From Desulfomonilaceae bacterium (GTDB taxonomy: Bacteria > Desulfobacterota > Desulfomonilia > Desulfomonilales > Desulfomonilaceae), in NCBI GenBank assembly GCA_031082285.1, contig JAVHLK010000029.1:1-54879 (forward strand): DNA of 54,879 bases, read 5' to 3'. The notes under the pieces are model-generated. The model was not told the DNA's origin. It did no database searches and saw only the letters and a program-made list of their open reading frames with translations. Positions 3,001 through 26,978 of the stretch are shown piece after piece. Made by a program: the position numbers and the translations under genes. Position 1 is the stretch's first letter. Each line of letters starts with the position of its first letter.

Positions 3001-3408
3001 ACCGGACATCGGTTCGCTCCCGCGCTGATTGCACCGTTCTTCTTCCTCAAACGCGACCTGAAGACTCTGTCGGGATTCTCTCCTGGACCGGACTTTCAGC
3101 CTCTCAAGCTATTCGCAAACAACTACACATGCAAGGGATTCAAGATCAAGAGCTGCAAGCCGGTGCTGAATCGGGTCTACTATTATCTGTCGCGACTCAG
3201 TGTCGAGGATCTGCGGGCCTGCCCGTTCCTGACCACGTGCGACGACATCTACGTCCTGGACCCGTCGTTCATCCCCGAAGCGCTGTTGCTCGACGCGTCA
3301 CGCGCTGAAAAGCTTATTCACGGCAGCCTCAAGAGATGGCTCGCGGCCGTTGAGGGGAAAGAAGGGGGCGAAGAGAAACCCGCGCTTCAGACGTCACCGC
3401 AGGCGTAG
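1..3408 (+). CDS. Lon-like ATP-dependent protease with N-terminal HEXXH region and C-terminal extension (5' end outside window)
   Basis: The reading frame is open to the first base, so the true start lies upstream; a TTG at 37 is only the first in-window start codon. About 1135 residues are visible, longer than a classical Lon (about 800). Residues are numbered from that TTG. Region 1-300 is not a recognisable Lon substrate-binding domain and contains HEIDH (91-95, bases 307-321), an HEXXH zinc-protease-like motif. The AAA+ part has Walker A GPPGVGKT and Walker B MFIMDEAD. The S16 protease part has the catalytic Ser in KDGPSAGG and the catalytic Lys in GIKLETA, both expected for an active Ser-Lys dyad. 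About 240 residues follow, with four cysteines near the end (C-x6-C and C-x5-C spacing). Lon-family unfolding and degradation of cytoplasmic proteins is well supported. Metal binding or peptidase activity at HEIDH is inference. Confidence 0.93.
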   Translation, partial: LSILNAIVQRRVLQYFKIARGTDPTAAARVTKTLEIERLEDPGNRIHCVDVIVNREGRWVISIHERIFDYLAFVIPINPDSRLGDGTIEERKMLAFSEFLLRHEIDHTLYPLRTERDIVKSDVEFAMNRRENDPTFYRDLRKVLADEMIGLKGRRYLELFDNAEREAPFGGIVTEIVNSFAVTISDIPLDFIEEVFLGLQTELQTKVLGTWYRRSRDTTYSLTRRTASLRKLLRVFYRLVDTDAGRAEVVFNAFKERWGLVYLLHELGVPEISVEDKDSRQLYELFGRALKEFSEETEGLHPMRRPEPAVSPAKSVETPVAQKSLKDRIEEARKDPAFPEQVMDVIDKNKLNAVGHSGSKYSELIETLLAVPWGKTQKIRVTPEAFEEGLDLSHYGLERPKEILCDFFSNLIWRYRHFNEGDANHRRKDGSSFLFVGPPGVGKTSLAISIAKNLGIPYHKFSLGGMRDEADLRGHGFTYEGSKPGAIVQGLIKMGVTNGMFIMDEADKTEKFAIATLLEILDPEQNHLFHDKFTQSTVDIDLSNCHFILTANTLDTVPPPVVNRCEVVVLDRYSVDEKICIARTHLIDRVRERYSITEDHISIAPDSEADLLRHIIKTYTHEAGVRELERIIRTLFLRIMRKEILGRDSAAVKLTREQVKEYLNAPARARVINEDDRVGEMTALGVNVERGMGSIIPVQATPVRAGHARGNGRGYLSMVNATGNIEHIMDESRKVAVTAILHCAETLNIDLQHAEAPIHLHFMGGSTPKDGPSAGGAIALALASVLSGRRIRRDVAMTGEIDTQGRVTSISGLGIKLETAYDAGCKTVLIPKENLHGADGIERLSDALKRELQVLEYEQWKGPHTPFDPDRHMLQIVAVDHITQAAEIALIDDRQLSEIEMSLVAHGRLVAESIPKLSETDRLPCTVVYAKALWEMGSDGSHDRFWEDNGSYVLVRPSAGKDLAEQFPALEENRRLWNFDPTEQAVTETLRDIVKHLHVCTGHRFAPALIAPFFFLKRDLKTLSGFSPGPDFQPLKLFANNYTCKGFKIKSCKPVLNRVYYYLSRLSVEDLRACPFLTTCDDIYVLDPSFIPEALLLDASRAEKLIHGSLKRWLAAVEGKEGGEEKPALQTSPQA

Positions 3409-3478
3409 GGGCGGGTTTTTCACCCGCCCGATCCTGGGTGCTTGATTGCGGGCGGGTATAAAACCCCTATCGGGGGTG
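3409..3478. repeat. Hairpin-forming GC-rich repeats after the Lon-like gene
   Basis: Directly after the stop codon an 8-bp stem (gggcgggt / acccgccc) encloses a T-rich loop at 3409-3429. A second, weaker copy of the same theme (ggcgggtataaaacccc) follows at about 3451-3466. The T-run is in the loop and not after the stem, so this is not a standard intrinsic terminator, although it may serve as one between two converging genes. It resembles the short dispersed hairpin repeats found elsewhere in this window. Confidence 0.5.
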
Positions 3479-3655
3479 AGCAGCAAACGTCCGCGACGAG
3501 CCGGCAACCCGTCGCGCATTGCGTAACAAAAATGAATCCCCATTGTGCTGTGATTTGTCTCCACGCCAGCCTTTTTGAGACAGTTTCTGAGATGCCGCTC
3601 TACTCTCATAGGGCAGGACCGACGACAGCATGCCTTGGCGGTCTAACTGCTCCCG

Positions 3656-5428
3656 TCAGCCCGCAGGCGGGCGGCCTTCCTCATCCCAGCCGCGCGCTCG
3701 GTAGTACTCTCTGAGCAGGGTATCCATGTCATCCCTGGATATGGATTTTCCCGTTTCCGGGAGCGCCTCTTCATGGAAGCGTTTGGGCAACCGGTCATCT
3801 TCGGGAGTGAGTCCCTCCCGGAGATTGAAGCGTCTGGTCTCGTCTGTCACTCCGGCAGCCAAGGCCCTCATGCGGGCCGTGTCAAGGTTCATGCCGGTAA
3901 TCGCTCGAACGATCAGCGACAGTTCGCCCCACTGGTACAAGTCCCGGTAGAATCGACAGAGGATGAGGGTATCGAAGAGAGTCAAGCGATCCTCCCACTC
4001 GGCGAACATTGCCGCTTTTCCCTCGATCCGGTCCGGGTCGATCATCTTGGACAATTCAGGTTTATAGAACGTGGCCCTCAAGTGACACGCTCCGCGATCG
4101 CTGGAAGCGTATGCCAACCCCATCCCCTTGAGTACGCGAGGGTCGTAGCCCGCAGGCTCCAGGCCCTTCACGTGGATCGCCTGATCTTCCATGCCCCATG
4201 CCGCGGCCGCGTGTTTCATTCCACGAGCGAGCGTATCTCCAATGTCCCTGCGATATGCCATGTCTTCAAGGAGTTGGGCTATGCGGTCCACCTGACCGTA
4301 GTCGAGTGGGTAGTCAATCTTGCCCTGTCTGGACGCTTCGATGGCAAACGCGGCCAGGTTGCCGCCGGACATGGTATCCAGACCCAGCCGGTCGCACAGG
4401 TCGTTCAGATACGCGACCTCTTCGATGCCGTCCACTTCGCACAAGCCCCCGAACGCGTAGATAGTCTCGTACTCGGGGCCCTCGATCTTGAGACCCTTGT
4501 GTCGGCCTTCCTTTACCGTGGCCATCCTTCCGCATGCAATGAAGCACTTTCTGCATGCGTGTGCCTGGACGCTGCACCGTTCATGCAACGCGGTCGCGTT
4601 GATCCGATCCTTGTGTTCGGCCCGACCCTTTTGCCAGTATCGGGTCGGGAATCCCCCCACACCGTTCATGATGTCCACAAGCATGGGCGTACCGAAACTC
4701 TTGTAATTCTTTACGCCGGGATCGTCCTTTGCCGACGAGGAGACGGCTCTCGCGAACTCCTTGACGAGAACCGGATCTGCCAATTCTTTCTTCCGGTTTC
4801 CCCGAAACGCGATGCCTTTTATCTTCTTGGACCCCATGACCGCACCGGCACCGGTTCGCCCCGCGCTTCGCCAGCGGTCGTTTTCCACCACGGCAAAACT
4901 CACCAGGTGTTCACCGGCCGGACCGATCACCACGACGCCGCACTGCGACGTTCGGGGACGGTTATCCTTTATCCAGGATTTGATGCGGGCTTCGGTCGCG
5001 TACGTGTCCAAGCCCCAGAGGTCCTTTGCATCATGGAACCAGACCCCCTCGTCCGAAATCTCGATCCACACGGGGTCTGCACTTGCTCCATCGATCGCGA
5101 CCGCGTCATAACCGGCCGCGGCCATGTACTCGGTGACCGAGCCCCCCGAGTAGGATTCCGAGTAGAACCCCGTTTGCGGAGACTTCGTGTAGATGCCGTG
5201 TCTGCATGATCCCCAGATCGGGGTACCTGCAGTGGGGCCGATCGCGAGCACGAGATGGTTCTCCGGAGCGAGAGGATCCACTCCGGGCGGGTTGCCTTCG
5301 AGCAACAGATGAGTGGCCAGCCCCTTGCCTCCAAGAGTTTTCTCGAGCAACTCATCGGATATGGTGTGCGTATCGGACGACCTCTCCGAAGCGTTCACCT
5401 TTACGATCATGTTGAAGAATCCGTGCAT
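3656..5428 (-). CDS. Aldehyde:ferredoxin oxidoreductase, tungstopterin type
   Basis: Oxidises aldehydes to carboxylates with ferredoxin as electron acceptor, or runs in reverse, in the cytoplasm of anaerobes. About 590 residues is normal for the family. Visible features are the pterin-binding GRTGAGAVMGSKKIK stretch (about 190-205), the [4Fe-4S] motif CxxCxxxC (ACRKCFIAC, about 292-299), and the distal cluster cysteine near 490 in DTLILC, matching the DxxxxC pattern of Pyrococcus AOR. A GTG at 5434 is in frame, but the upstream gaggtag suits the ATG at 5428 much better. No ferredoxin or partner subunit is adjacent, so it looks like a stand-alone monomer-type AOR. The natural aldehyde cannot be read from sequence; in an aromatic degrader it could be an aryl aldehyde, which is speculation. 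Confidence 0.95.
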   Translation of the reverse strand: MHGFFNMIVKVNASERSSDTHTISDELLEKTLGGKGLATHLLLEGNPPGVDPLAPENHLVLAIGPTAGTPIWGSCRHGIYTKSPQTGFYSESYSGGSVTEYMAAAGYDAVAIDGASADPVWIEISDEGVWFHDAKDLWGLDTYATEARIKSWIKDNRPRTSQCGVVVIGPAGEHLVSFAVVENDRWRSAGRTGAGAVMGSKKIKGIAFRGNRKKELADPVLVKEFARAVSSSAKDDPGVKNYKSFGTPMLVDIMNGVGGFPTRYWQKGRAEHKDRINATALHERCSVQAHACRKCFIACGRMATVKEGRHKGLKIEGPEYETIYAFGGLCEVDGIEEVAYLNDLCDRLGLDTMSGGNLAAFAIEASRQGKIDYPLDYGQVDRIAQLLEDMAYRRDIGDTLARGMKHAAAAWGMEDQAIHVKGLEPAGYDPRVLKGMGLAYASSDRGACHLRATFYKPELSKMIDPDRIEGKAAMFAEWEDRLTLFDTLILCRFYRDLYQWGELSLIVRAITGMNLDTARMRALAAGVTDETRRFNLREGLTPEDDRLPKRFHEEALPETGKSISRDDMDTLLREYYRARGWDEEGRPPAG

Positions 5429-5686
5429 TTTCACCTACCTCAATCATCGTTTCCATGGTAAGGAGAGTCGTCCAGCGACTACATGACGTGTGTGGCCGCC
5501 AACAAGTGATTGCCTTTGAAACGATTATAGGAAAAATGGACGTGAAGTCCAAGGGCCTCGTTCACGGATTTCGTCCCCGTCGGTGAGCCCGGTGTGCAGC
5601 CCAACCGTGCCGTGATGCATGACGCCATTCCCGTGCGAGCGAGTGCTGCCGCTTAGGCGAGCGATCGTTATCCCTATGGCAAGCCG

Positions 5687-7237
5687 ATGAAACGACCTAC
5701 TTCGAAAACCAGGCGCCAGACCGAATACGGTGATTTCCAGACGCCGTTGGATTTTGCCCGTAGGGTGTGTCGGTCGCTTGCCGAGCAGGGACTACGTCCT
5801 AATTCCGTACTCGAGCCGACATGTGGTCGTGGGAGCTTTCTCGTGGCGGCCCTGGAACGGTTCGCGACGATTCGGAAAGCCGTGGGCATCGAGATCGACC
5901 CTGAATCGGTCCGGGTCGCACGCGCGGCCCTTGCCGGCTTACGGAACGGCCGGAGGGCCGAGGTCCGACAAGGGAACTTCTTTGAGCAGAACTGGACCGA
6001 GATCCTGGAAGCTTTGCCCGAACCGCTTCTCATCATCGGAAACCCTCCGTGGGTGACCAACTCGGAGCTGGGAACCATCAGAAGCTCGAACCTTCCCGCA
6101 AAGTCAAACTTTCAGAATCACAAAGGCCTTGAAGCCGTCACGGGAAAGGCGAACTTTGACATCTCCGAATGGATGACGATCAGGTGTCTCGAATGGATGA
6201 ACGGCCGTCGAGGGGTTATCGCACTACTCTGCAAGGCCGCCGTGGCAAGGCGAGTGCTTGCCCGGTACTGGAGGGCCGGGGAAGAGCCGGTTCGTGCCGA
6301 CATGTATCTCATTGACAGTCATAAGATCTTTGGTGCCGCAGCGGCCGGATGTGTGCTCGTCGTGGACGCGTCGACGCCGAGTCGAGATCGGTCCTGCCGT
6401 GTGTACCCGGGTCTCGAGACGAACCATCCGTCCGCAGCCTGGGCATATGTCGACAACGCGTTTATTGCGGACATTGATGCGTACAAGCGTTGGAAGCACC
6501 TCTCGAGGGCCGAGCGCTACATATGGAGATCCGGCATCAAGCACGACTGCGTACGGATCATGGAGTTCACCGAGGAGTACGGGGGATTGCGCAACCGCAT
6601 GGGAGAGATTGTTGACTTGGAACCGGACTACCTCTACCCCATGCTCAAGAGTTCCGATCTCGCGGATGCACGCGGAAGACCACCCACGCGGTGGTTGCTC
6701 GTAACTCAGCGGTCGGTGGGAGCGGATACCGGTGAAATCCGAGAACGGGCGCCGAAGACCTGGGAATATTTGTGCAGACACGGCGATCTCCTGGACCGTC
6801 GAGCGAGTTCCATCTACAGAAAACGGCCTCGATTCTCCATGTTCGGAGTCGGGGACTACTCATTCTCGCGCTGGAAGGTTGCCGTCTCAGGGCTGTACAA
6901 GAATCTTGCGTTCAAGGCGATCGGCCCCTTTCGAGGCAGACCGGTAGTCCTGGACGACACGTGCTACTTCCTGCCGAGCCGGTCTCGACATGAAGCTCAA
7001 TTGACGGCTCGACTTCTGAATTCAGAGATTGCCGCGGAGTTCTTCTCGGCGTACGTGTTTCGGGACGCGAAGCGACCGATCACCGCGGAGGTCCTGCGTC
7101 GGCTGGATATTCGTAAGCTGGGTAAGGAACTAGGGATTGAGGACGAAGAATTGAGATACCTGGGAAGTACGTCCCATGACCCGCAATTCTTGGAGGACGC
7201 GAAAGATTGCTGCGTGCGGGCTCCCAATAACCAATAG
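5687..7237 (+). CDS. Solitary N6-adenine DNA methyltransferase-like protein
   Basis: A class I SAM-dependent methyltransferase of the N6-adenine DNA methylase type, 516 residues. It has the FQTP segment near the N-terminus (17-20), SAM motif I VLEPTCGRGSF (41-51), an acidic motif II (GIEIDPES), and the catalytic NPPW (119-122) that defines adenine N6 or amino methylases. The C-terminal half looks like a target-recognition region of the type seen in type IIG or BREX-like methylases. There is no nuclease motif (no PD-ExK region apparent) and no adjacent restriction or specificity gene, so it is either an orphan methylase or part of a system encoded elsewhere. The Shine-Dalgarno before the ATG is weak. 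The target sequence is unknown. Confidence 0.85.
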   Translation: MKRPTSKTRRQTEYGDFQTPLDFARRVCRSLAEQGLRPNSVLEPTCGRGSFLVAALERFATIRKAVGIEIDPESVRVARAALAGLRNGRRAEVRQGNFFEQNWTEILEALPEPLLIIGNPPWVTNSELGTIRSSNLPAKSNFQNHKGLEAVTGKANFDISEWMTIRCLEWMNGRRGVIALLCKAAVARRVLARYWRAGEEPVRADMYLIDSHKIFGAAAAGCVLVVDASTPSRDRSCRVYPGLETNHPSAAWAYVDNAFIADIDAYKRWKHLSRAERYIWRSGIKHDCVRIMEFTEEYGGLRNRMGEIVDLEPDYLYPMLKSSDLADARGRPPTRWLLVTQRSVGADTGEIRERAPKTWEYLCRHGDLLDRRASSIYRKRPRFSMFGVGDYSFSRWKVAVSGLYKNLAFKAIGPFRGRPVVLDDTCYFLPSRSRHEAQLTARLLNSEIAAEFFSAYVFRDAKRPITAEVLRRLDIRKLGKELGIEDEELRYLGSTSHDPQFLEDAKDCCVRAPNNQ

Positions 7238-8043: not shown

Positions 8044-10050
8044 TTGGAGAATCGACGGATCGCGACAATTTGCAGGATTTGCAAGGAAAATTGCGGAATT
8101 CTGGTTTCGGATAACGGACACACTCTGAAGATCGCCGGTAACCCGGAACATCCCATCAGCAGAGGTTTCTCATGCTTCAAGGGGAGAAACTTCGGCGATG
8201 TTCACAACGCGCCTGATCGCCTCCGGACCCCCATGCTCAAGAAGGGCTCCCGTTGGGTAAGCATATCTTACGAAGATGCGGTTGAGGTTCTGGTCCACAA
8301 GCTCAATGCAGCCAAAGACAAGTACGGTCCGCAAAGTGTTGCGTTCTACAAGGGCGAGTCTGTGAAGCATCAGGAAATCGCTCATTACATGAGCCACCTG
8401 GCTTTTGGGTTCGGGTCTCCCAATTATATCTCCGTCGGAAGCCTGTGCCACTATGCAATGGTCCTTGGGCATTCGTTGACATATGGGGGAATGCCCAAGC
8501 CCGATTTCCAAAGGCTAAAGACCGCCGTCGTGTGGGGAGCGAATCCCGCCAATGCTTCCCCTCTGGAGTTCTCCCGCCTCAAGCGAGCGGTTCGTGATGG
8601 GACAAAACTGATGGTTGTCGATCCGTCACGCACCAAGACCGCCGAGCAGGCGGATATTCATCTTCCCATCACGCCCGGGTCCGACGGCTATTTGGCCCTG
8701 GCCTTCATGAAGCACGCGGTCGAGAATGTGGGTCCGGATGCCCCGGGTAGCCTTTCCACAGGATGGGACATTCTTTCCGACACGGTGAAAAGCCTGTCTT
8801 ACGGGGAACTTCTTAGGCACACGGGCCTTGATTGGCCTCAATTCCATCGTGCTGCGTCACTCATTTTTGCAAACCGGCCCGGATGGGTTCTCACCGGATT
8901 GGGGCTGGAACTCCAGCAGGTCGGTGTTCAAGCGATCCGGGCCATTGCGTGCCTCCAATCGGTATTGGATCCGTCCAACAGGCCGTTTCCCATCTCTGCA
9001 GGCATGAGGGATCTCCCCGGCCGGGAAAACTACCCGCCGTTACCTGCTGCGATAGGTGCGACGCAAGCGCCTCTGTACGTCCAGACGAGACGCGAGGCAC
9101 AAGGCATGTTTCTGTCCCGTGCGATCTTGAACGACGATCCATACCCGTTAAGGGCCATGCTTGTCGTGGGGGGCAATCCCATGAGCACCTTTCCCGCCTA
9201 TTCGGAACATAGGCGAGCCTTGGAGAAGCTCGATTTTCTTGCGGTTTTCGATCTCTTCATGACGCAGACGGCACAATTGGCGGATCTGGTCCTGCCTGCC
9301 TCCGATCATCTCGACAACCTGGAACTTCATGATTACGGCCCGGCCGGCCGGCCCTACCTGGGGCTGGTCAAGCCGGCCACCTTGAATCCCATCGGCCTGC
9401 CCACCTGGAAACTTGTGTTCAGGCTCGCCCGCGAACTCGGCCTCGAAAGGCTCTTCCCCTGGGCGGATAACAGGGACGCCCTTGCTTACAGGTTGTCTGC
9501 CGGCTCAATTCAAATCGAGGATCTTGAAAAGAGCCCTGGAAGCGTACTTCCGTACGAGACAGCCGAGAAGCGCAATAACGGCTGGTTCACTGCAGACGGG
9601 AAAGTCCAGTACCGATCCGAAAAACTGGAAGAGTTCGGTTACGTGGGCGTACCCGTCCCAAATTGCTTTGAGGTACCTTTCCGAACCGACCGTGAATTCC
9701 CCCTATGGTTGAGCACGGGCGACCGTATTCCTGTGTACCAACACAGCCAGTATCGGCAAGTTCCCACGTACAGGGACCGGACGCCCGAGGCCTTCGTGGA
9801 TGTTCATCCCGGCACCGCGGCTGAACTCGACATTGGTAATGGCGATCGGGTTTTCGTTGCGACTCGTTACGGTCGAATGGAAATCCGAGTCAACCTGAGC
9901 GACGAAGTCCGCAGGGATTGTATTCGTATTCCTCATGGCTGGGAAGAGGCAAACGCCAATACCTTGACGGGTCTCGAGTACTTTGATTCGATTTCCGGTT
10001 TTCCGTGGCTCAGGGCCCTTCCCGCGAGATTGGAAAGGAAGGACGGATGA
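8044..10050 (+). CDS. Molybdopterin oxidoreductase, DMSO-reductase superfamily
   Basis: A 668-residue catalytic subunit of the Mo/W-bisPGD superfamily. The N-terminus binds one [4Fe-4S] cluster through C10, C13, C17 and C44 (CxxCx3Cx26C). C135 in SLCHYAM sits where these enzymes carry the metal-ligating Cys, Ser or SeCys. The C-terminal 110 residues form the usual molydopterin-dinucleotide-binding fold. There is no Tat signal, so it is cytoplasmic. No electron-transfer subunit (FeS or membrane anchor) is adjacent, which is unusual for respiratory members and recalls stand-alone enzymes such as acetylene hydratase or transhydroxylases. It starts at TTG behind a strong aaggagg, and its stop overlaps the start of the next methyltransferase gene (ATGA), implying coupled expression. 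The substrate is unknown. Confidence 0.93.
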   Translation: MENRRIATICRICKENCGILVSDNGHTLKIAGNPEHPISRGFSCFKGRNFGDVHNAPDRLRTPMLKKGSRWVSISYEDAVEVLVHKLNAAKDKYGPQSVAFYKGESVKHQEIAHYMSHLAFGFGSPNYISVGSLCHYAMVLGHSLTYGGMPKPDFQRLKTAVVWGANPANASPLEFSRLKRAVRDGTKLMVVDPSRTKTAEQADIHLPITPGSDGYLALAFMKHAVENVGPDAPGSLSTGWDILSDTVKSLSYGELLRHTGLDWPQFHRAASLIFANRPGWVLTGLGLELQQVGVQAIRAIACLQSVLDPSNRPFPISAGMRDLPGRENYPPLPAAIGATQAPLYVQTRREAQGMFLSRAILNDDPYPLRAMLVVGGNPMSTFPAYSEHRRALEKLDFLAVFDLFMTQTAQLADLVLPASDHLDNLELHDYGPAGRPYLGLVKPATLNPIGLPTWKLVFRLARELGLERLFPWADNRDALAYRLSAGSIQIEDLEKSPGSVLPYETAEKRNNGWFTADGKVQYRSEKLEEFGYVGVPVPNCFEVPFRTDREFPLWLSTGDRIPVYQHSQYRQVPTYRDRTPEAFVDVHPGTAAELDIGNGDRVFVATRYGRMEIRVNLSDEVRRDCIRIPHGWEEANANTLTGLEYFDSISGFPWLRALPARLERKDG

Positions 10051-11138
10051 CACTGGTAGATTTTTCAACAAGAGACTCGATGACCGGGAAAGACCGTCTC
10101 ATGGCGCTCACGGCAGGTCAAGCCGTCGACAGGGTCCCTTTCAACCCCTTCTCTCTGGGATTCTCTGCAAGACTGTACGGTGTCGATCGAGGTCAATTCT
10201 ACCGCAATCCCGACGTGGCGTTTGCTGCCGGAATGCACCTGATGAGGCAATTCCCCTGGATGACCTTCCGACCGGCGTACGGTTGGGCCGACCGAGGCGC
10301 CTGGGAGTTTGGCGGACGGATATGTTGGCCCGACGGCGATCGCTACTCCGCTCCGTTTTCACCTGAAGCCGTGATAACAACGCCACAGGAATTGGATTCG
10401 CTTCCCGACCCGGATCCGGAATCCTGCGGCATGAACCCCTTGGCACGTCGATTCAACGAGCTTTGCAGAGAACACGGCTTTCCCGCGTCACTCCCCGGGG
10501 GAACTCCGACTACGATGAGTGCGGCAATACTCGGTAAGTCCCGGTTTCTGAATTGGATGATCCGCTACCCCGAGGTAGTGCACAAACTGCAGCGCAAAGT
10601 CACGGATTTCTTGATCCACAGTGCGGAACTTACGATCAATAAGTACGGTGGTCCGAACTGCAGCGTGCTGTGCGCCGTGCCCATGGAATCGAATCAACTG
10701 ATTTCCGCGAAAATGTTTGAGTCTTTCTGTAAGCCTTACATAGGAGAGATCATGGATTACTACGCGTCAGAAGGCGTGAAAAGCGTGGTGGTTCATCTTT
10801 GCGGGGATCACACTGCCAATCTCAGCCATTGGGCGAACATTCCCGTGCCTCGGAGAGCCGTCTTTTCCGTGGGCAAAGAGATGGACTTGGATGAAACCGG
10901 TGTATTTCTCGGCAAGGACTACGTTCTGGCAGGCAACCTCGACAGCAGCATACTTCAGTTCGGGTCGGCGGACCAAGTGAAGGACGAGGTCAAGCGGTGC
11001 TTGCAGTCAGGCATGAAGCACCCCGGAGGATTCGTGCTGATGCCCGCGTGTGAGATTCCTCCGGACATGCCTCTGGAAACCGTGAGCGCCATAGCGGAGG
11101 CTTTGTTCGAGCACGGTTACTACACTGAAGATAGGTGA
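10047..11138 (+). CDS. Uroporphyrinogen decarboxylase-fold (MtaA/CmuA-like) methyltransferase
   Basis: A 363-residue protein of the URO-D superfamily. The C-terminal part has the zinc-type pattern of cobalamin:CoM or corrinoid methyltransferases: H250 and C252 in HLCGD, and C335 in MPACEIP. True HemE lacks this set and has a conserved N-terminal arginine-rich motif not seen here. These enzymes move methyl groups between a corrinoid protein and a thiol, or demethylate methoxylated substrates. The ATG overlaps the stop of the molybdopterin oxidoreductase (ATGA) with ggaagg just upstream, so the two are translationally coupled. A corrinoid protein lies 3.2 kb downstream on the same strand, the likely partner. 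An in-frame start further upstream would lie inside the previous gene and is unlikely. Confidence 0.88.
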   Translation: MTLVDFSTRDSMTGKDRLMALTAGQAVDRVPFNPFSLGFSARLYGVDRGQFYRNPDVAFAAGMHLMRQFPWMTFRPAYGWADRGAWEFGGRICWPDGDRYSAPFSPEAVITTPQELDSLPDPDPESCGMNPLARRFNELCREHGFPASLPGGTPTTMSAAILGKSRFLNWMIRYPEVVHKLQRKVTDFLIHSAELTINKYGGPNCSVLCAVPMESNQLISAKMFESFCKPYIGEIMDYYASEGVKSVVVHLCGDHTANLSHWANIPVPRRAVFSVGKEMDLDETGVFLGKDYVLAGNLDSSILQFGSADQVKDEVKRCLQSGMKHPGGFVLMPACEIPPDMPLETVSAIAEALFEHGYYTEDR

Positions 11139-11293
11139 CGGTCGACTTCCACGGTTGCCGGGAACTAACGCCGTGATTTCGTTTCGAACGAAACGGGACC
11201 GGTGAAGCGGGACCGAACAACGAGTACCATGCGCTGAAGCGTGAGGGGGAGGGACCGGCCCCTCCGCCGCGCCAATTCGGAAGGCGAACGGGT

Positions 11294-12133
11294 GTGCGTT
11301 CTATGGATCTGGAAATAAGAGATTTGCGCAAGGTCATCGATAACCGGAAACACAGCGCGGTTGTGCTCGATGACCTGCAATTGCGGATCGGATCGGGAGC
11401 GTTGGTATCCATCGTGGGACCGAGTGGGTGCGGAAAGACCACGTTGCTGGAAATAATCGCCGGCCTTCAGGCCAAGACACACGGCGACATCTTGATTGAC
11501 GGGGTTCCCGTTGAGAAAAGCTCGGCAAATAGGGCAATAGTCTTTCAGCAATACGCACTGTTTCCATGGTTGACGGTTCAAAAGAACATCGAGTACGGCC
11601 CCAAAGTTCGTGGGTTGAGCCGGAGCGACAGAAAGAGAATCAGTCGAATCCACGTTGAGATGGTGGGTCTTTCAGGGTTCGAGAGTCACTATCCGCACGA
11701 GCTGTCAGGAGGCATGCAGCAGCGAGTTTCGCTGGCACGCGCTCTGGCCATCGATCCGGACATCCTCCTTCTTGACGAACCTTTTGCCGCTTTGGACGCC
11801 CAGACCAAAGAGAAATGCCAGCAGGAGCTTCTTGACGTATGGGAGGAGACGGGCATCACTATTCTCTTTGTCACTCACGACATCTGCGAAGCCTTGTTTC
11901 TGTCGGACCGTGTTTTTCTTATGGCGGCGAATCCCGGAACGATCAGAGATTGCATCGAGGTTGATATGGAGCGTCCGAGACGGAATTCGCTCAGGCTCGA
12001 CACCAACTTTCGCACAAAAGAGGCACAGATAAGGAGTTTTCTCAATGACGGCGCCAGTGAGTTTGAGATCGATCAGCGCGACCGATGCCCTGTACGCCTG
12101 GCGCGTTCCACCAGGCTGCATTCCATCGGGTAA
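11294..12133 (+). CDS. ABC transporter ATP-binding protein, NitT/TauT family
   Basis: The nucleotide-binding subunit of an importer for small organic or inorganic anions (nitrate/sulfonate/taurine class). It shows Walker A GPSGCGKTT (42-50), a Q-loop in VFQQYALFPWLTV, signature LSGGMQQRV, Walker B ILLLDEPFAALD and the switch histidine in VTHD. The FPWLTV segment after the Q-loop is typical of this subfamily. The GTG start has ggaagg about ten bases upstream; the in-frame ATG nine bases later is an alternative. It is followed by the permease and the binding protein, so the importer is complete. The last 30 residues are poorly conserved. Placement in the methyltransferase locus suggests it imports that pathway's substrate. 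Confidence 0.93.
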   Translation: MRSMDLEIRDLRKVIDNRKHSAVVLDDLQLRIGSGALVSIVGPSGCGKTTLLEIIAGLQAKTHGDILIDGVPVEKSSANRAIVFQQYALFPWLTVQKNIEYGPKVRGLSRSDRKRISRIHVEMVGLSGFESHYPHELSGGMQQRVSLARALAIDPDILLLDEPFAALDAQTKEKCQQELLDVWEETGITILFVTHDICEALFLSDRVFLMAANPGTIRDCIEVDMERPRRNSLRLDTNFRTKEAQIRSFLNDGASEFEIDQRDRCPVRLARSTRLHSIG

Positions 12134-12247
12134 GACCTGCGGCATGCCTCCGAAACGAAACCGTTCTTGCCGTTCGCAGTGGAGGAGTCTTGCTGCAGGT
12201 CTCGGAAAAGCTGCTCATTGGCCCGCACCTTGTCATGAGGAAGTCTC

Positions 12248-13009
12248 ATGAAGCAACTCGTTCACAAAACCGCTCTTCCAGTGCTCTTACTGGTCCTGTG
12301 GTACGCTGCGTCGAGATTCGGACGCATATCGCCTCTGATATTGCCGGACCCTGAATCCACAATACGAGGGTTGATTGCACTCGTCCAGAACGGAGACCTG
12401 GCGCTGAACGGCTATGTCAGCCTCAAGAGGAGCATGGGAGGCTTCTTGCTGGGATCGTTTCTAGGGGTGTCCTCTGGAATATTGATCGGTTGGTCCCATC
12501 TCTGGGAGGATTTGCTCGATCTCCTCATTAACTTCGTTCGAGCCATTCCCAAGACGGCCTTGGCCCCTCTGTTCATCGTCTGGTTCGGACTGGGCGACAC
12601 TTCAAAAATACTGCTCATTGCGTTCAGCAGCTACTTCTTCACGGTGATCCCAACCATAGAAGGGGTGAAGAACGTTGACGCCCTCTACGTCAAGACCGCC
12701 AGATCAATGGGCGCCGGTGAATGGCAGATCTTGAGGGGCGTTGTCATGCCTGCCGCCATGCCCGCCATTTTCGCGGGGCTCAGGCTCACGGTGACCACAG
12801 CCCTGATAGTGCTTGTGATGGTGGAAATCATCGCGGGCAATGACGGGCTGGGGTACCTACTGCAGGAAGCGCGTGGAAACCTCGACATGGCGACCATGTT
12901 TGCAACGCTCTTCGCATTGGGGGTATTGGGCTACTGTCTCGATGCGGGGATGCAATACCTCGGCCGAGTTCTCATGCCGTGGAGAAAAGGCAAGACTCTG
13001 TCCGCGTGA
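12248..13009 (+). CDS. ABC transporter permease, NitT/TauT (SsuC-like) family
   Basis: A 253-residue inner-membrane protein with about six hydrophobic segments and the EAA-type cytoplasmic loop (YVKTARSMGAGEWQILRGVV region, about 149-169) that contacts the ATPase. It belongs to the BPD_transp_1 family of sulfonate/nitrate/taurine importers. It starts at ATG after gaggaag and follows the ATPase gene by 114 bases that hold no convincing gene. Confidence 0.93.
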   Translation: MKQLVHKTALPVLLLVLWYAASRFGRISPLILPDPESTIRGLIALVQNGDLALNGYVSLKRSMGGFLLGSFLGVSSGILIGWSHLWEDLLDLLINFVRAIPKTALAPLFIVWFGLGDTSKILLIAFSSYFFTVIPTIEGVKNVDALYVKTARSMGAGEWQILRGVVMPAAMPAIFAGLRLTVTTALIVLVMVEIIAGNDGLGYLLQEARGNLDMATMFATLFALGVLGYCLDAGMQYLGRVLMPWRKGKTLSA

Positions 13010-13324
13010 TTCCCGTTGAAAGCTTCATGAGTTTTCTTACGGTTATCATTGGCTGCCGCCGCCGGTTTGTCCATCGGTGCTCGGCATCCAGAGTGACGGG
13101 GTTATTGAACCCTGTCACGAGTACCTAGGTACAGGATTTCATAAGTTTGGTTACGTATCTTGCACGCTGAGATTGCTTCGTCGTTTCAGTCCTTGCAATG
13201 CCGGCATCGAGGTTGTCATTGCCAAGACGAAGCCCGTGGCAATCTAGTGCGGTTTAGAATACGAAACCGTACTTAGGAAATCGATTACTCACATCTTGAG
13301 AAAAGAACGGATCGGGAGAAGAGA
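13010..13324. other. Intergenic region with a degenerate dispersed repeat
   Basis: No gene is visible between the permease and the binding-protein gene. The middle holds a degenerate copy of the 'gagattgcttcg' repeat family. The end carries the ggagaa ribosome site of the next gene. A separate promoter for the binding protein is possible but none matches consensus well. Confidence 0.5.
13169..13245. repeat. Degenerate MITE-like repeat unit
   Basis: Begins gagattgcttcgtcg, has a tgcaatg...tgtcattgc internal inverted pair, and ends ggcaatct, approximating an inverted copy of its start. It matches in layout the better preserved unit at 15687-15774. Confidence 0.55.
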
Positions 13325-14293
13325 ATGAGCAGAAACAGATTGCACAACAGCGTTTGGTTTGCTTTCGCCGCCTTGTTGGCTTGCTTGCTTATTTCGCAAG
13401 TGATCTATGCCTCGGAACGGGACAAGATGAAAGTCGTGTACGCTTCATACCATGACTTCTGTATGGACGTACCCATCGCAATTGAGAAAGGGTATTTTGA
13501 CCTGCTCGGCCTGGATTTCGAGCCCGTGGACATAGCCAGTGCCCCGACTCGCATAAGCTTGTTGCCGAGAGAAGACATTGACGGGACTTTCCTGCCTTCG
13601 TCCACAGCTCTGTTTGTGGTGGAAAAGGGCATTGATTTGGTCTTGATCTGCGGTATAGGAAACCGATCGTTCGACTACGCCGTGCTTAAGGACTCTCCTA
13701 TCAAGGACATACAGGATTTTGCGGGCAAAAAAATCGCGAACTTGGCCAAGCCCTCCAATCCCTGGCTGGCTCTGGAATACGATCTGGCCGCAAATGGAGT
13801 AAAAGGGCACTCGGTGATTTCAACTGGCGACGACGCGGACCGGATCTCCATGTTGCTGAGCGGGAACGTCGACGTCGCGATGTCTTCTCCCCTGATGGAG
13901 GCGAAACTGGGCGACCAAATCAGGGTGGTGCATAGCTGCTCCACCAGCAAGTACCTTTGGAATTCCTGTGGGTGGTTTTTCAAGCGAGATTACATTCGCA
14001 AGCATCCGGAAGCCGTCAAGAAGTTTGTTCAGGGGCTGGCTATGGCGAGAAAGATCATACACGAAAACCCTGATGAGGCTATCAAGATATATTCCAAGTA
14101 TAACAAAATGGATCAATCCTCGTTCAAGAAACTTTTTCAGATCGCTTCCTTCGATAATCCTCCCGTGATCTACGTCTACGGACTGCAAGAGACCCATAGG
14201 ATGATGCAGCAGTTCAATCTACTGAAAACCAAGTTGGACGTTACCAATCATGTAAACGGACAATTCGCCGAATCACTGGACGTCCGGTATTGA
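13325..14293 (+). CDS. ABC transporter substrate-binding protein, NMT1/SsuA-like
   Basis: A 322-residue periplasmic protein of the NMT1/THI5-like family, which binds the ligand of NitT/TauT importers. The N-terminus is a clear Sec signal (positive start, hydrophobic 12-27, cleavage probably after the ASE region near residue 30). The mature part has the two-lobed binding-protein pattern, with the conserved GKKIANL and AVKKFVQGL stretches. The start is ATG after gggagaa. The family includes binders of sulfonates, nitrate, pyrimidine precursors and aromatic acids, so the ligand cannot be named. Its position between the permease and a corrinoid protein suggests a methylated or methoxylated compound, which is inference. 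Confidence 0.9.
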   Translation: MSRNRLHNSVWFAFAALLACLLISQVIYASERDKMKVVYASYHDFCMDVPIAIEKGYFDLLGLDFEPVDIASAPTRISLLPREDIDGTFLPSSTALFVVEKGIDLVLICGIGNRSFDYAVLKDSPIKDIQDFAGKKIANLAKPSNPWLALEYDLAANGVKGHSVISTGDDADRISMLLSGNVDVAMSSPLMEAKLGDQIRVVHSCSTSKYLWNSCGWFFKRDYIRKHPEAVKKFVQGLAMARKIIHENPDEAIKIYSKYNKMDQSSFKKLFQIASFDNPPVIYVYGLQETHRMMQQFNLLKTKLDVTNHVNGQFAESLDVRY

Positions 14294-14379
14294 TCTGTTT
14301 TCGAGTATGGGCGACCTAAACGGATGACCGAGTATGAACGGAACGCATTGGGATCTCGTATCCGGTCGAGGAAAATGGA

Positions 14380-15069
14380 ATGATTTCAGAAGAGAGACGA
14401 AGCGAGATACTGGCAAACCTTTCCAGCGGGGTGGTGGAATACGATGAAGAGCAGGTCCGAGAGTGGGCACACATAGCTCTTGAAGAGGGTCTGGACGCGT
14501 ACGATGCGATCATGAGCGGTCTCGCGGCCGGAATGGAGATCGTTGGGGATTTGTACGATCGGCACGAATACTTCGTCCCGGAAATCCTCATGTGCGCGGA
14601 CGCTCTGTATGCCGGCCTGGACATCCTTAAACCTCACCTGAGTGTCGAGGCTTCACGAGCCCCAAAGGGGCAAGTGGTCATCGGCACTGTTCAGGGAGAC
14701 GTCCACGATATCGGCAAGAACCTGATCAAGATGATGTTCGACGTCGGCGGCTTCACGGTCCACGACCTTGGTCGAGACGTGCCCCTCGACAAGTTCGCGG
14801 AGGAACAGATACGTACCAATTCCGATATCGTGGCGATTTCCGCTATGATGACCACAACAATGATGGGGATGAAGAAGATTGTCCAGGCGATCAAGGCCAA
14901 GAACCCCAACGTAGCCATAATGCTGGGCGGAGCGCCTCTGACCCGAGACGTGGCCGAACTCTTCGGCGCGGACGGATATGCAGAGCACGCCGGCAACGCG
15001 GTGCAGGAAGCCATCAAGATGATAGCCCAACTTCGCAGACTCGACCAAGAAGACGATCCCGCAAACTGA
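14380..15069 (+). CDS. Corrinoid (cobalamin-binding) methyl-carrier protein
   Basis: A 229-residue protein with the two-domain layout of MtaC/MtbC/MttC-type carriers. A helical B12-binding cap (about 1-90) is followed by a Rossmann B12 domain with the lower-ligand motif DxHxxG (D107, H109, G112), the S-containing SAMMTTTM strand and the GGAPLT loop. It carries methyl groups on cobalt between a substrate methyltransferase and an acceptor methyltransferase. The ATG follows a gaggaaaa Shine-Dalgarno. The UroD-type methyltransferase upstream is the obvious partner. No reductive activase (RamA-type) gene is in the window, although such carriers need one. Confidence 0.94.
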   Translation: MISEERRSEILANLSSGVVEYDEEQVREWAHIALEEGLDAYDAIMSGLAAGMEIVGDLYDRHEYFVPEILMCADALYAGLDILKPHLSVEASRAPKGQVVIGTVQGDVHDIGKNLIKMMFDVGGFTVHDLGRDVPLDKFAEEQIRTNSDIVAISAMMTTTMMGMKKIVQAIKAKNPNVAIMLGGAPLTRDVAELFGADGYAEHAGNAVQEAIKMIAQLRRLDQEDDPAN

Positions 15070-15374: not shown

Positions 15375-15713
15375 ATGCCGGCCCGTGTTTCATTCACGTT
15401 TTCAGACCATTGCGAGATCGGCCGGTCTTACGTTGAGAGTGGAACAGACTACTCTTTCGAGAGAATCGGAAGGCTCGCCGGAATCGCGATGTTCTCGGAC
15501 GAAGACCTTATGCACAGGCCGGTTCTGAAAGGATGCAACGCGCTTGACATAGCCTACTTGATGGAGTTTATAGAGATTGCCGAAAGTCCTGTCCGAAATG
15601 AGGGCGTCCGTGTCGTTACCTGGCAAGTGCCGCCGGCCTTCCTAAGTGCTCGGTGGCACAAATATGGACACGTATTCCGGCGAGCTGAGATTGCTTCGCT
15701 TTGCTCGCAATGA
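15375..15713 (+). CDS. Hypothetical protein, doubtful
   Basis: A frame of about 112 codons from an ATG with no clear Shine-Dalgarno. The middle (SFERIGRLAGIAMFSDEDL through DIAYLMEFIEIAES) has a natural-looking composition, but I recognise no family. The 3' end runs into the dispersed repeat at 15687, so the last ten residues are repeat-derived. It may be a remnant truncated by repeat insertion rather than a working gene. Confidence 0.25.
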   Translation: MPARVSFTFSDHCEIGRSYVESGTDYSFERIGRLAGIAMFSDEDLMHRPVLKGCNALDIAYLMEFIEIAESPVRNEGVRVVTWQVPPAFLSARWHKYGHVFRRAEIASLCSQ

Positions 15714-15774
15714 CAACCTTTACCATGTCTTTGCGAGGAGCGTAGTCCCGCGCAGAACGCGGGAAAGCAATCTC
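15687..15774. repeat. 88-base MITE-like repeat with 10-base terminal inverted repeats
   Basis: The ends gagattgctt (15687-15696) and aagcaatctc (15765-15774) are perfect inverted repeats. Inside are an inner pair (ctcgcaatgac / tttgcgaggag) and a copy of the 19-base hairpin tcccgcgcagaacgcggga (15746-15764). No coding capacity. A non-autonomous mobile or regulatory repeat is likely; no transposase is in the window. Confidence 0.7.
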
Positions 15775-16074: not shown

Positions 16075-17880
16075 ATGGCCGTGAATGAACGCGTGAAAGA
16101 CAAACTCGACCGGTTTATGCTGTGGCGCGCGGTGAAGCTGGTATGGGAGAGCGCACCGGGGTGGACTGCCGTCAACCTCGTTGCCATCTTGGTGCTGGGC
16201 TTGCTTCCGCTCGGGGCAGTGTACGTGATGAAGCTGGTGGTGGACGCGGTGACGGATGCGATCGGAGGACCTGCCGGTCAAGCGCATATGGATTCCATCC
16301 TGTTCCTCGTAGCCATCTCGGGCGCTCTCATTCTGACGCAAGTCCTGGTATCCTCCGCGGCAAACGTGGTGAAGAGCATCCAGTCGCAGCTGGTGACGGA
16401 CAGGCTGGCCTCCATCATTCAGGACAAAGCCGTCGCAGTGGATATGGAATGCTACGACAATCCCGATTACTACGACAAACTACACAGAGCCGAAGATGAA
16501 GTGGCCTTCCGTCCAAACAGAGTCGTGGACGGTCTGGTGGAGCTCGCCAGAAATACGATCTCATTGTTGGCAATGGCCGGGCTTCTCTTTTCGTTTCACG
16601 TGGGCCTGGCCGCCGCGGTGCTGATTGCGTGCGTGCCCGATTTCCTGGTCCGCCTGAAATTGAGCGAAAAGCTGTATGCCTGGTTCCGCCAAAACACCAC
16701 GCCGATAAGGCTTGCGAACTTCTTCCACTGGATGCTCACCAAGCAGTTCCATGTCAAGGAAATGCGCGTCTACGGTCTTGGCTCGACCTTGATGAATCGA
16801 TTCGAGAAGATTCGCTCCGCGCTCCGGCAGGACAAGTTCAGGCTCGTCGCTCGGTACGGCGTATTCGAAATGCTCGCCGGCACGGTCACGGTGGCCGCGT
16901 ATCTGGCGGCGTACATCTTTATCGTATACCGGACTGTTGCAGGGGCCATTACCCTGGGCGACATGGTTATGTATTACCAGGCATTTCAGCTTGCCCAGGA
17001 CAACTTCAAGAATTTGATGCGGAGCATCGCCCTGTTGTTTGAAGACAGCCTTTTCATATCGAGTCTTTACGATTTCCTTCACTGGGAGAACAAGGTGAAG
17101 GAACCCGCACGTCCCAAGGCGCTCCCAAACGCGATTACTTCGGGAATAAGCCTGGAATCGGTCAGTTTTCGATATCCGGGCCGGGGCAACGAAGTTCTGG
17201 AAAACGTGACATTGAACATGCAGCCGGGCCGCATCACGGCCCTCGTGGGAGAAAACGGGTCGGGCAAGACCACGTTGTTGAAGCTGCTGTGCCGGTTCTA
17301 CGATCCGACGGGCGGTTCGATCTGCATAGACGGTCAGGACTTCAAGTCGATACGCAGAGAAGATCTGTGGAAAAGCATGGGCGTGATATTTCAGGATTAT
17401 TCAAAATACCCGGTCACCGTGCGGGAGAACGTTTCCTTCGGCGCCTGCCATGTGGACGAACGGATGGACCGCGTCGTCGAGGCGGCAAGCGAAGCAACTG
17501 CACATGCCATGATCATGAATCTCCGACGACAGTACGATACGGTGCTGAGCAACTATCTCGAGGGAGGGCAGGAATTGAGCGAGGGCGAGTGGCAGAAGAT
17601 GGCGCTCGCCCGCGCGTTGTATAACCGCGGACAAATCTTGCTGCTCGACGAGCCGACCTCGTCCATGGACGCGAAGTCCGCGCGTCGTTTTCTCGCTCAG
17701 CTCAAAGAGAACTCGAACGGACGCGTGGTGTTGCTCATAAGTCATGATCTGTCGACGGTCGGCATCGCCGACTGGATATACCTTCTCGATCATGGTCGCA
17801 TCGTTGAAATGGGAACGTACGAGCAACTCCTGGAAAAGCGAGGACGGTTCTGGCGCCTGTTCAGCACAAGCGCCTCTTGA
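16075..17880 (+). CDS. ABC exporter, fused membrane and ATPase domains
   Basis: A 601-residue half-transporter. An N-terminal membrane domain of about six segments (about 30-345) is followed by an ATPase domain with Walker A GENGSGKTT, Walker B ILLLDEPTSSMD and H-loop ISHD. The signature is ELSEGEWQKMALARA rather than LSGGQ, a variation seen in peptide and lantibiotic-type exporters. There is no peptidase C39 domain. It would export a lipid, peptide or glycan as a homodimer. The ATG is about 17 bases after gaggagg, a long spacing, and no other in-frame start fits. It precedes the GH13 and GT-C genes on the same strand, but with gaps of about 200 bases, so a common pathway is only suggested. 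Confidence 0.92.
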   Translation: MAVNERVKDKLDRFMLWRAVKLVWESAPGWTAVNLVAILVLGLLPLGAVYVMKLVVDAVTDAIGGPAGQAHMDSILFLVAISGALILTQVLVSSAANVVKSIQSQLVTDRLASIIQDKAVAVDMECYDNPDYYDKLHRAEDEVAFRPNRVVDGLVELARNTISLLAMAGLLFSFHVGLAAAVLIACVPDFLVRLKLSEKLYAWFRQNTTPIRLANFFHWMLTKQFHVKEMRVYGLGSTLMNRFEKIRSALRQDKFRLVARYGVFEMLAGTVTVAAYLAAYIFIVYRTVAGAITLGDMVMYYQAFQLAQDNFKNLMRSIALLFEDSLFISSLYDFLHWENKVKEPARPKALPNAITSGISLESVSFRYPGRGNEVLENVTLNMQPGRITALVGENGSGKTTLLKLLCRFYDPTGGSICIDGQDFKSIRREDLWKSMGVIFQDYSKYPVTVRENVSFGACHVDERMDRVVEAASEATAHAMIMNLRRQYDTVLSNYLEGGQELSEGEWQKMALARALYNRGQILLLDEPTSSMDAKSARRFLAQLKENSNGRVVLLISHDLSTVGIADWIYLLDHGRIVEMGTYEQLLEKRGRFWRLFSTSAS

Positions 17881-18099
17881 TCGACGGTGATGGAAGACCC
17901 GAGCGGTTTCGGTCGGGAACGCCGGCTCAGCCGCAGCATCACAAAAAAATTGACAAACAGCCGCTACCTGCGTAAATTTCGAGGTTACTCGGAGGATTCG
18001 AGCCTCCTGCGATTCCACCGTTCGAGTTCCGCCCACATACCGGAGACCATTGAAACCCGTAGTTTGTGCCGGCGGCGCTTGTAAGAACATCGACGCCAT

Positions 18100-19812
18100 A
18101 TGAAGTCCATAAAAGATCTGAACTTTTCACCGGCCGGGGAGTATTTCCCATCTCCTTTAGACTGGCGCGACATCGTGCTGTACAGCCTTTTGGTGGACCG
18201 GTTTGATGACGGCTCGTGCCGACTTTGTTTCGGGGACGCCGGTGTTCGAGACGCGGTAAGATCCCCCGAGAATCGCCAAGCTTTCCAGGGCGGTAATCTC
18301 AGGGGAGTCATGAGTCGGTTGGATTACATTGCCGGTCTGGGCGCCAAGGGGATATGGCTTAGCCCCGTCTTCAAGAATCGTCCCGAACGCGACGACACCT
18401 ACCACGGGTACGGCATCCACAGCTTTTTGGAAGTCGATCCTCGATTCGGTACCGTGGAGGAGCTTCGTGAGCTTGTTTCCAAGGCGCACGACCGGGGCAT
18501 GTACGTGATTCTTGATATCGTCGTCGCGTTCACGGGAGATAACTGGGCATATGAAGGCGACCATTTCTGCGAGTATTCGACGGAACTCATGGAACCGTAT
18601 CCCTTTGGGTTCTGGCGGACGCTTTCCTCGGGCAACAACGGCTCTTGCAACGATGCGGTATGGCCGCAAGAGCTTCAGTTGAAGCAATTCTACATGAGGC
18701 GCGGGAAGATACGCGACTGGAAAATGGAAGGCCCGGAAGCCGTCGAGGGTGATTTCGACACCCTGAAGAAGCTCGACATTCGTCAGCGGGAAGTTCTCGA
18801 CATTCTTATACGAATTTACAAGTTCTGGATACGTACCGCAGACATCGACGGATTTCGTCTGGACGCGGCCAAACACATGGATCCGCTTTCCGCGGCTCGG
18901 TTCTGTTCCGCAATTCGTGAATACGCCAAGGCGCTGGGTAAACACAATTTCCTGATTTTTGGTGAGATCGCATCAGGATATCAGACGATTCAGCAATATC
19001 TCAAAGGCTGCGCATTCTGCGCAGTGAACGGCCGTCGCCATCACGGCTTTGACGCGGCGCTGGATTTTCCGCTGAGCTATATCCTGGAGCGCGTGGTGAA
19101 AGGGTTCTCCAGTCCGGAGGAGCTCCGTTGGGTTTACGACAGCACTAATCCATTATATGCCAACAGTCGGGATCCGGGCGTGAATTCCGTGACTTTCCTG
19201 GACAACCACGACCGGAACCGGCGCTTCATGCATCAGAATCCTTACCGGGAGCAGTTGGTGCTGGCTCTGGGGTATCAGTTGACGAGCCTCGGGGTTCCCT
19301 CCATCTATTATGGTACCGAACAGGGCTTTGACGGAGGCGGCCCCGATCTGCACTACGTCCGTGAATGCATGTTCGGGGGCGTATGGGGGGCGTTCGGCCG
19401 GTGCCGCACGGGCTTCTTCGACACCGAGAATCTTGTCTACAAGAGTATCGCGCGACTGGCGGCCATAAGGATGCAAGAGCCCGCGCTTAGGTACGGACGG
19501 CAGTATTTTCGGGAAACGAGCACGAACGGAATAGACTTTGCTCATCCCGGGGACAGACATTGTACTCTGGCATATTCACGCGTTCTGGACGACGATGAGA
19601 TCGTCGTAGCGCTCAATCTGGACTTTCACGCTCGAAACGACTTCATCACCATAGATTTCACCATGAACGAGGAAGGCGAATGGCTGGCGGATCTGCTGCA
19701 GCCGCAATTCCGCGTTCAGGTCGTGAAGCGGCATGGCCGCAGCTCGGTACAAGTCCGTCTTGGCGGTCTGCAGATGGCGATTCTCAAGAAAGAGAAGCTT
19801 TGTGCCGGCTGA
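18100..19812 (+). CDS. Alpha-amylase family (GH13) glycoside hydrolase or transglycosidase
   Basis: A 570-residue cytoplasmic protein (no signal) with a (beta/alpha)8 GH13 core. Region II GFRLDAAKH carries the nucleophile D255, region III IFGEIAS the acid/base E289, and region IV FLDNHD the transition-state D371. Region I is atypical: DIVVAFTGDN replaces the usual DxVxNH. All three catalytic acids are present, so it should be active on alpha-glucosidic bonds. A C-terminal beta domain follows from about 470. Family members include amylases, trehalose synthases and sucrose-type enzymes; the exact one is not decidable here. Its stop overlaps the probable start of the GT-C gene. The ribosome site before the ATG is weak. 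Confidence 0.88.
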   Translation: MKSIKDLNFSPAGEYFPSPLDWRDIVLYSLLVDRFDDGSCRLCFGDAGVRDAVRSPENRQAFQGGNLRGVMSRLDYIAGLGAKGIWLSPVFKNRPERDDTYHGYGIHSFLEVDPRFGTVEELRELVSKAHDRGMYVILDIVVAFTGDNWAYEGDHFCEYSTELMEPYPFGFWRTLSSGNNGSCNDAVWPQELQLKQFYMRRGKIRDWKMEGPEAVEGDFDTLKKLDIRQREVLDILIRIYKFWIRTADIDGFRLDAAKHMDPLSAARFCSAIREYAKALGKHNFLIFGEIASGYQTIQQYLKGCAFCAVNGRRHHGFDAALDFPLSYILERVVKGFSSPEELRWVYDSTNPLYANSRDPGVNSVTFLDNHDRNRRFMHQNPYREQLVLALGYQLTSLGVPSIYYGTEQGFDGGGPDLHYVRECMFGGVWGAFGRCRTGFFDTENLVYKSIARLAAIRMQEPALRYGRQYFRETSTNGIDFAHPGDRHCTLAYSRVLDDDEIVVALNLDFHARNDFITIDFTMNEEGEWLADLLQPQFRVQVVKRHGRSSVQVRLGGLQMAILKKEKLCAG

Positions 19813-26944: not shown

Positions 26945-26978
26945 CAGAACACCTCCTTTGCACATACGTTGCCATAAA

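Follow-up and report, generated by a model that had tools for sequence, protein, structure and literature searches.

An operon at positions 8044–15069 of a 54,879-nucleotide contig from a 5.6-Mb Desulfomonilaceae genome (JAVHLK010000029.1; the whole stretch is hereafter the window) combines a molybdenum- or tungsten-dependent (Mo/W) enzyme of the MopB superfamily, a methyltransferase of the UroD superfamily (UroD1), an ATP-binding cassette (ABC) importer, and a corrinoid protein. We conclude with high confidence that the importer, the Mo/W chemistry, and the corrinoid demethylation form one conserved unit. The operon may serve to take up a small methylated molecule, most likely an organosulfur (or organoselenium) compound, to convert it reductively (or by hydration), and to demethylate it anaerobically, a reading that we prefer but hold tentatively. 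A sequence-only reading of the same DNA had described six co-directional genes here, with the UroD-type gene overlapping the oxidoreductase stop codon; all six open reading frames lie on the + strand, with Pfam scores far above cut-off that back each assignment, and the MopB stop and UroD1 start overlap as ATGA at 10047.

The five genes for MopB, UroD, ATPase, permease, and binding protein keep this order in all seven genomes with the operon, namely that of the window and six relatives (L037–L039, found with the MopB query, and L187–L189, added by a UroD search of 389 Desulfobacteria); two of the seven belong to the Desulfomonile family and five to the Desulfobacteria class. Protein identity to the window spans about 42–86% across the relatives: it is 72–86% in L037, a Desulfomonile metagenome-assembled genome (MAG) and the closest operon-bearing relative, 51–72% in L038 (a Deltaproteobacteria MAG), and 47–70% in L039 (a Desulfobacula MAG), while L187, L188, and L189 hold the complete five-gene order with a UroD 62–63% identical to UroD1. 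The overlap of the MopB stop with the UroD start is likewise kept in all seven, as ATGA, GTGA, or TTGA. Between the window and L037, the ratio of nonsynonymous to synonymous substitution rates (dN/dS) is ~0.07–0.12 in all five genes, values that are only approximate because dS is high (1.2–1.8) and that suggest purifying selection on each gene. Because the order recurs in six other genomes, the overlap is kept in seven, and dN/dS is low, the operon is more than a chance arrangement. The linkage of importer, Mo/W enzyme, and corrinoid methyltransferase that the sequence-only reading had proposed is thus borne out by the order and overlap in relatives.

The corrinoid protein, which that reading had counted as a sixth member, is less strictly kept: a carrier gene stands directly behind the five genes in 5/7 genomes. 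It stands there alone in the window (14380–15069, +; Pfam PF02607 and PF02310, B12-binding_2/B12-binding; GDVHDIG as the DxHxxG motif) and in L187, and three further relatives also have a RamA activase and a second UroD (UroD2), as co-directional UroD2-RamA-carrier in L188 and L189; in L039, these three genes (carrier, UroD2, and RamA) are encoded on the other strand. The contig itself carries no RamA-type activase, as had been noticed, and five RACo/RamA genes lie elsewhere in the genome; in the three relatives, RamA and UroD2 belong to the set. The window's carrier is ~80% identical to two paralogs in the same genome, both in RamA-carrier-UroD-MtrH sets, and the carrier tree does not resolve whether it is ancestral to the operon. 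With a zinc-site UroD methyltransferase, a DxHxxG carrier linked to the operon in the window and four of the six relatives, and RamA/RACo, all three hallmarks of corrinoid-dependent methyltransferase systems are present, and the predicted corrinoid chemistry of the operon is well supported.

The operon is rare, occurring in 5/389 sampled Desulfobacteria, two seed genomes included. Within the window's family, one member (G005) lacks it, and another (G001) carries a truncated MopB (L068, 12155–13213; 52–57% identical over residues 8–300) with no UroD or importer genes beside it, which is probably an operon remnant. In L189 (G1170), an IS91-type element of 2,373 bp (Zn_Tnp_IS91/Y2_Tnp transposase) is present in two identical direct copies, at 3318–5690 and 17129–19501, that bracket the entire MopB-UroD-importer-UroD2-RamA-carrier operon, which may therefore move as a unit.

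MopB (8044–10050, +; 668 residues; Pfam PF04879/PF00384/PF01568, Molybdop_Fe4S4/Molybdopterin/Molydop_binding) begins at a TTG codon a few nucleotides after AGGAGG. Its [4Fe-4S] cysteines are Cys10, 13, 17, and 44, and Cys135 aligns with the metal-ligand Cys of acetylene hydratase; the four cluster cysteines, the C135-H136 pair, and a KGESxKHQE segment are invariant in six aligned orthologs. The N terminus opens directly on a cluster Cys and so leaves no twin-arginine translocation (Tat) signal. No electron-transfer subunit gene adjoins MopB in the window, in agreement with the first description, and none of the operons examined encodes such a partner. With MopB, no curated NCBIfam model comes near its cut-off (highest score, Fdh-alpha, 248/666 bits; PhsA equivalog, 191/694 bits), and a placement of the oxidoreductase in an established, unrelated family is not borne out. 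These features point to a cytosolic, single-subunit Mo/W enzyme with a bis-pyranopterin guanine dinucleotide cofactor (bisPGD), outside the named families. The window's MopB forms one clade with those of L037, L038, and L039 (100/100). Among solved proteins, acetylene hydratase (188 bits) comes closest by sequence, followed by an F420 formate dehydrogenase (160 bits); the predicted model (predicted local distance difference test, pLDDT, 79.7) superposes equally well on acetylene hydratase (Z 33.6, 3.3 Å over 651 residues) and on polysulfide reductase (Z 33.4, 3.3 Å over 640 residues). The Desulfobacula MopB (L039, ~10565) has a single in-frame TGA where the window has S195; selenocysteine is the less likely reading, since this Ser/Ala position lies away from the metal ligand, and a nonsense change or an error in a low-coverage MAG is likelier.

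UroD1 (10047–11138, +; Pfam PF01208, URO-D) has the predicted zinc triad H250-x-C252...C335, and the His-Cys-Cys triad is present in 45/45 untruncated homologs. Its nearest solved relatives are MtaA (4ay7) and then the chloromethane enzyme CdmB (9rui); its scores lie below the cut-offs of all named families, including MtaA/CmuA (TIGR01463, 84/235 bits; PRK06252, 98/244 bits) and HemE (32/303 bits). UroD2, which is MtaA-like, passes the methylcobalamin:coenzyme M (thiol) methyltransferase subfamily cut-off in the three relatives that have it. In the UroD superfamily, S-methyltransferases have a His-Cys-Cys zinc site, which is tied to S/Se methyl transfer, whereas O-methyltransferases swap one or both Cys (PMC10418091). 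Stop-codon recoding was dismissed for the UroD homologs, since the in-frame stops that some of them show are either C-terminal or not covered by the alignment. A separate group of loci (L192, L193, and L194, also L093 and L096) has UroD1 homologs, mostly paired, with a carrier and RamA, next to genes for GlcD/GlcF-type flavoprotein and Fe-S proteins, MmgE/PrpD-like genes, and a creatininase-like gene; by gene content, these appear to be another conserved UroD/corrinoid module.

The importer comprises a NitT/TauT-type ATPase (11303–12133, +; Pfam PF00005, ABC_tran), a permease (12248–13009, +; Pfam PF00528, BPD_transp_1), and an NMT1/SsuA-type substrate-binding protein with an N-terminal hydrophobic signal (13325–14293, +; Pfam PF09084 and PF13379). 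The best NCBIfam models are SaoA (251/360 bits) and TauB (237/357 bits) for the ATPase and SaoP (190/295 bits) for the permease, with further scores of 143/347 bits for SsuC and 94/163.5 bits for the SsuA family; all three parts resemble SsuABC/TauABC and SaoA/SaoP in family but remain below each specific cut-off, including the SsuABC/TauABC equivalog and subfamily cut-offs. The binding protein had no match in a sequence search of the PDB, and its modeled fold is nearest to SsuA by TM-score. An inverted pair of imperfect short repeats lies in the operon gap at 13190–13222 and behind the operon at 15707–15739; it looks like a dispersed intergenic element and may account for operon gaps that are wider in the window than in L037.

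Genes around related UroDs offer clues to the substrate. In L128, a related UroD and an NMT1 importer are followed by two pyridoxal-phosphate enzymes of Cys/Met metabolism, a cysteine synthase, and a second UroD; L177 (8695–17829; G005, from the window's family) combines an NMT1 importer, an MtaA-like UroD, a carrier 74% identical to that of the window, two homocysteine-biosynthesis genes (HcyBio / methanogenesis marker 16), and an Fe-S protein; and L064 has carrier-UroD-TauE. Based on the zinc triad, the UroD2 subfamily, these neighbors, and the SsuA-like fold, we favor a methylated S or Se substrate with moderate confidence; the Cys ligand of MopB and its fit to polysulfide reductase, equal to that to acetylene hydratase, point the same way. 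In view of the triad, L128, and L177, methoxylated aromatics, one of the substrate classes first named for this locus, are less favored than methylated sulfur or selenium.

We propose that the binding protein and ABC importer would bring in a methylated compound, as their families suggest, and that cytosolic MopB would then alter it, most likely by reduction of an S-O or S-S bond to yield a methyl thioether or thiol; that this step is a reduction and not a hydration is a guess. UroD1 would activate the sulfur on its His-Cys-Cys zinc and pass the methyl group to the cob(I)alamin of the corrinoid protein, which RamA, encoded elsewhere in this genome but within or next to the operon of L188, L189, and L039, would hold reduced. 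The methyl group could leave via the MtaA-like UroD2 of the relatives or via MtrH-type transferases encoded elsewhere in the genome. Support for such a pathway comes from the conserved order and overlap, the linkage to the carrier (with RamA and UroD2), and the purifying selection. Several observations weigh against it: no carrier was found on the available contigs of L037 and L038; L128 and L177 have no MopB beside the UroD; typical S-oxide reductases of the MopB superfamily have a Ser ligand, not the Cys of MopB; the binding-protein model is of moderate confidence (pLDDT 68); and UroD homologs beside GlcD/GlcF-type flavoenzyme genes share the triad, which may mark a whole UroD branch instead of sulfur and alone cannot fix the substrate.

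The main rival, which we consider unlikely, is O-demethylation of an imported acid of the methoxybenzoate type by UroD1 and the carrier, after which MopB would take off or shift a hydroxyl group on the ring. Molybdenum catechol dehydroxylases and pyrogallol-phloroglucinol transhydroxylase are precedents for the ring chemistry, some NMT1-type importers carry aromatic acids, and a separate RamA-carrier-UroD-MtrH set type exists in the window's family. Known O-demethylases (MtvB, OdmB, VdmB, and MtoB) are methyltransferase I (MTI) components of the UroD superfamily to which CdmB, the second-closest solved relative of UroD1, is related; the zinc site of UroD1, however, keeps both Cys, unlike superfamily O-methyltransferases, aromatic-pathway genes occur in 0/7 operons, and the sulfur-linked relatives also speak against an aromatic substrate.

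Two further alternatives concern MopB itself. It could act as a hydratase, adding water to an unsaturated or activated methylated substrate without net electron transfer, before or after demethylation by UroD1. Among solved structures, acetylene hydratase is nearest to it in sequence and shares first place in fold, and the operons encode no electron-transfer partner; yet every aligned ortholog has Lys14 in place of the catalytic Asp13 that stands next to the second cluster Cys in acetylene hydratase, and polysulfide reductase fits equally well, so we regard hydration as improbable. Less probable still is a formate dehydrogenase-like MopB that gives or takes electrons, whether to reactivate the carrier or to oxidize one-carbon units, and leaves the imported compound untouched. 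Fdh-alpha (TIGR01591) is the best NCBIfam model, matching over its full length in L189, and Cys135-His136 is similar to the formate dehydrogenase Cys/Sec-His pair, but the MopBs reach only 231–248 of the 666 bits, the aligned orthologs lack the RGQNNVQG segment that holds the catalytic Arg, and the gene to which MopB is coupled is UroD1 rather than RamA.

MopB-UroD pairings also occur outside the core clade. In family f55, two genomes have MopB-carrier-UroD-UroD and a third has carrier-UroD-MopB-MopB, and neighboring pairs are found in a Chloroflexota MAG (L138), an Actinomycetota MAG (L140 and L144), and a genome of the phylum of G429 (L133). MopB lies ≤6 kb from UroD in 5/27 loci found with UroD alone, against 0.64–0.9 expected; this enrichment is suggestive only, since three of the five loci come from one family and a fourth (L096) has a large respiratory-type MopB. 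In the MopB tree, members that adjoin a UroD are spread over the branches, and the label changes at least seven times. It is conceivable, if somewhat doubtful, that the overlapping gene pair represents an anaerobic pathway not yet described, in which a cytosolic Mo/W-bisPGD enzyme and then a zinc/corrinoid methyltransferase act on one imported methylated S/Se compound, with similar MopB-UroD pairings apparently of repeated origin across phyla.

Two other genes of the window were noted. The gene at 3656–5434 (−), close to the operon, encodes an aldehyde ferredoxin oxidoreductase and was dropped as a system member, as it was not recognized beside the operon of any relative. An alcohol dehydrogenase (25826–26965, −) resembles, by eye only, the 6-hydroxycyclohexenecarbonyl-CoA dehydrogenase of anaerobic aromatic degradation.

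Among known systems, type 1 mlp gene clusters consist of an MtaA-like S/Se methyltransferase, a corrinoid protein, and Ram (PMC10418091). The operon resembles them in its UroD-type enzymes with His-Cys-Cys zinc, corrinoid protein, and RamA, and in the MtaA-like UroD2 of three relatives, but UroD1 scores below the MtaA-family cut-offs, and the operon has a UroD1-coupled Mo/W enzyme and a NitT/TauT-type importer among its constant parts. With the O-demethylase and chloromethane systems (MtvB, OdmB, VdmB, MtoB; CdmBCA), it shares a UroD-superfamily MTI, a corrinoid protein, and an activase; those systems as described lack a Mo/W enzyme, and CdmB does not need zinc (PMC13222342), whereas the triad is complete in UroD1. 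MopB shares a Cys metal ligand and a single subunit with acetylene hydratase (2e7z), from which it differs in Lys14, in its ~26% identity, and in its methyltransferase linkage, which is not known for that enzyme. It shares its fold and the Cys at the ligand position with PsrA/PhsA (2vpw); PsrA/PhsA are exported and work with Fe-S and membrane subunits, whereas MopB has neither a Tat signal nor partner genes. No description of a molybdopterin enzyme combined with a corrinoid UroD system was found in the open literature, subscription journals lying outside the search.

In the anaerobic turnover of methylated S, O, N, and halogen compounds, corrinoid demethylation systems play a central part; for many of their UroD-type members, no substrate is known. 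The combination of a dedicated importer with a conserved Mo/W enzyme whose gene overlaps that of UroD1 suggests a compound that needs a redox or hydration step in addition to demethylation, and the seven genomes make the system testable. If the substrate is indeed a methylated sulfur oxide or disulfide, the operon would give the organic sulfur cycle a new route that works without oxygen.

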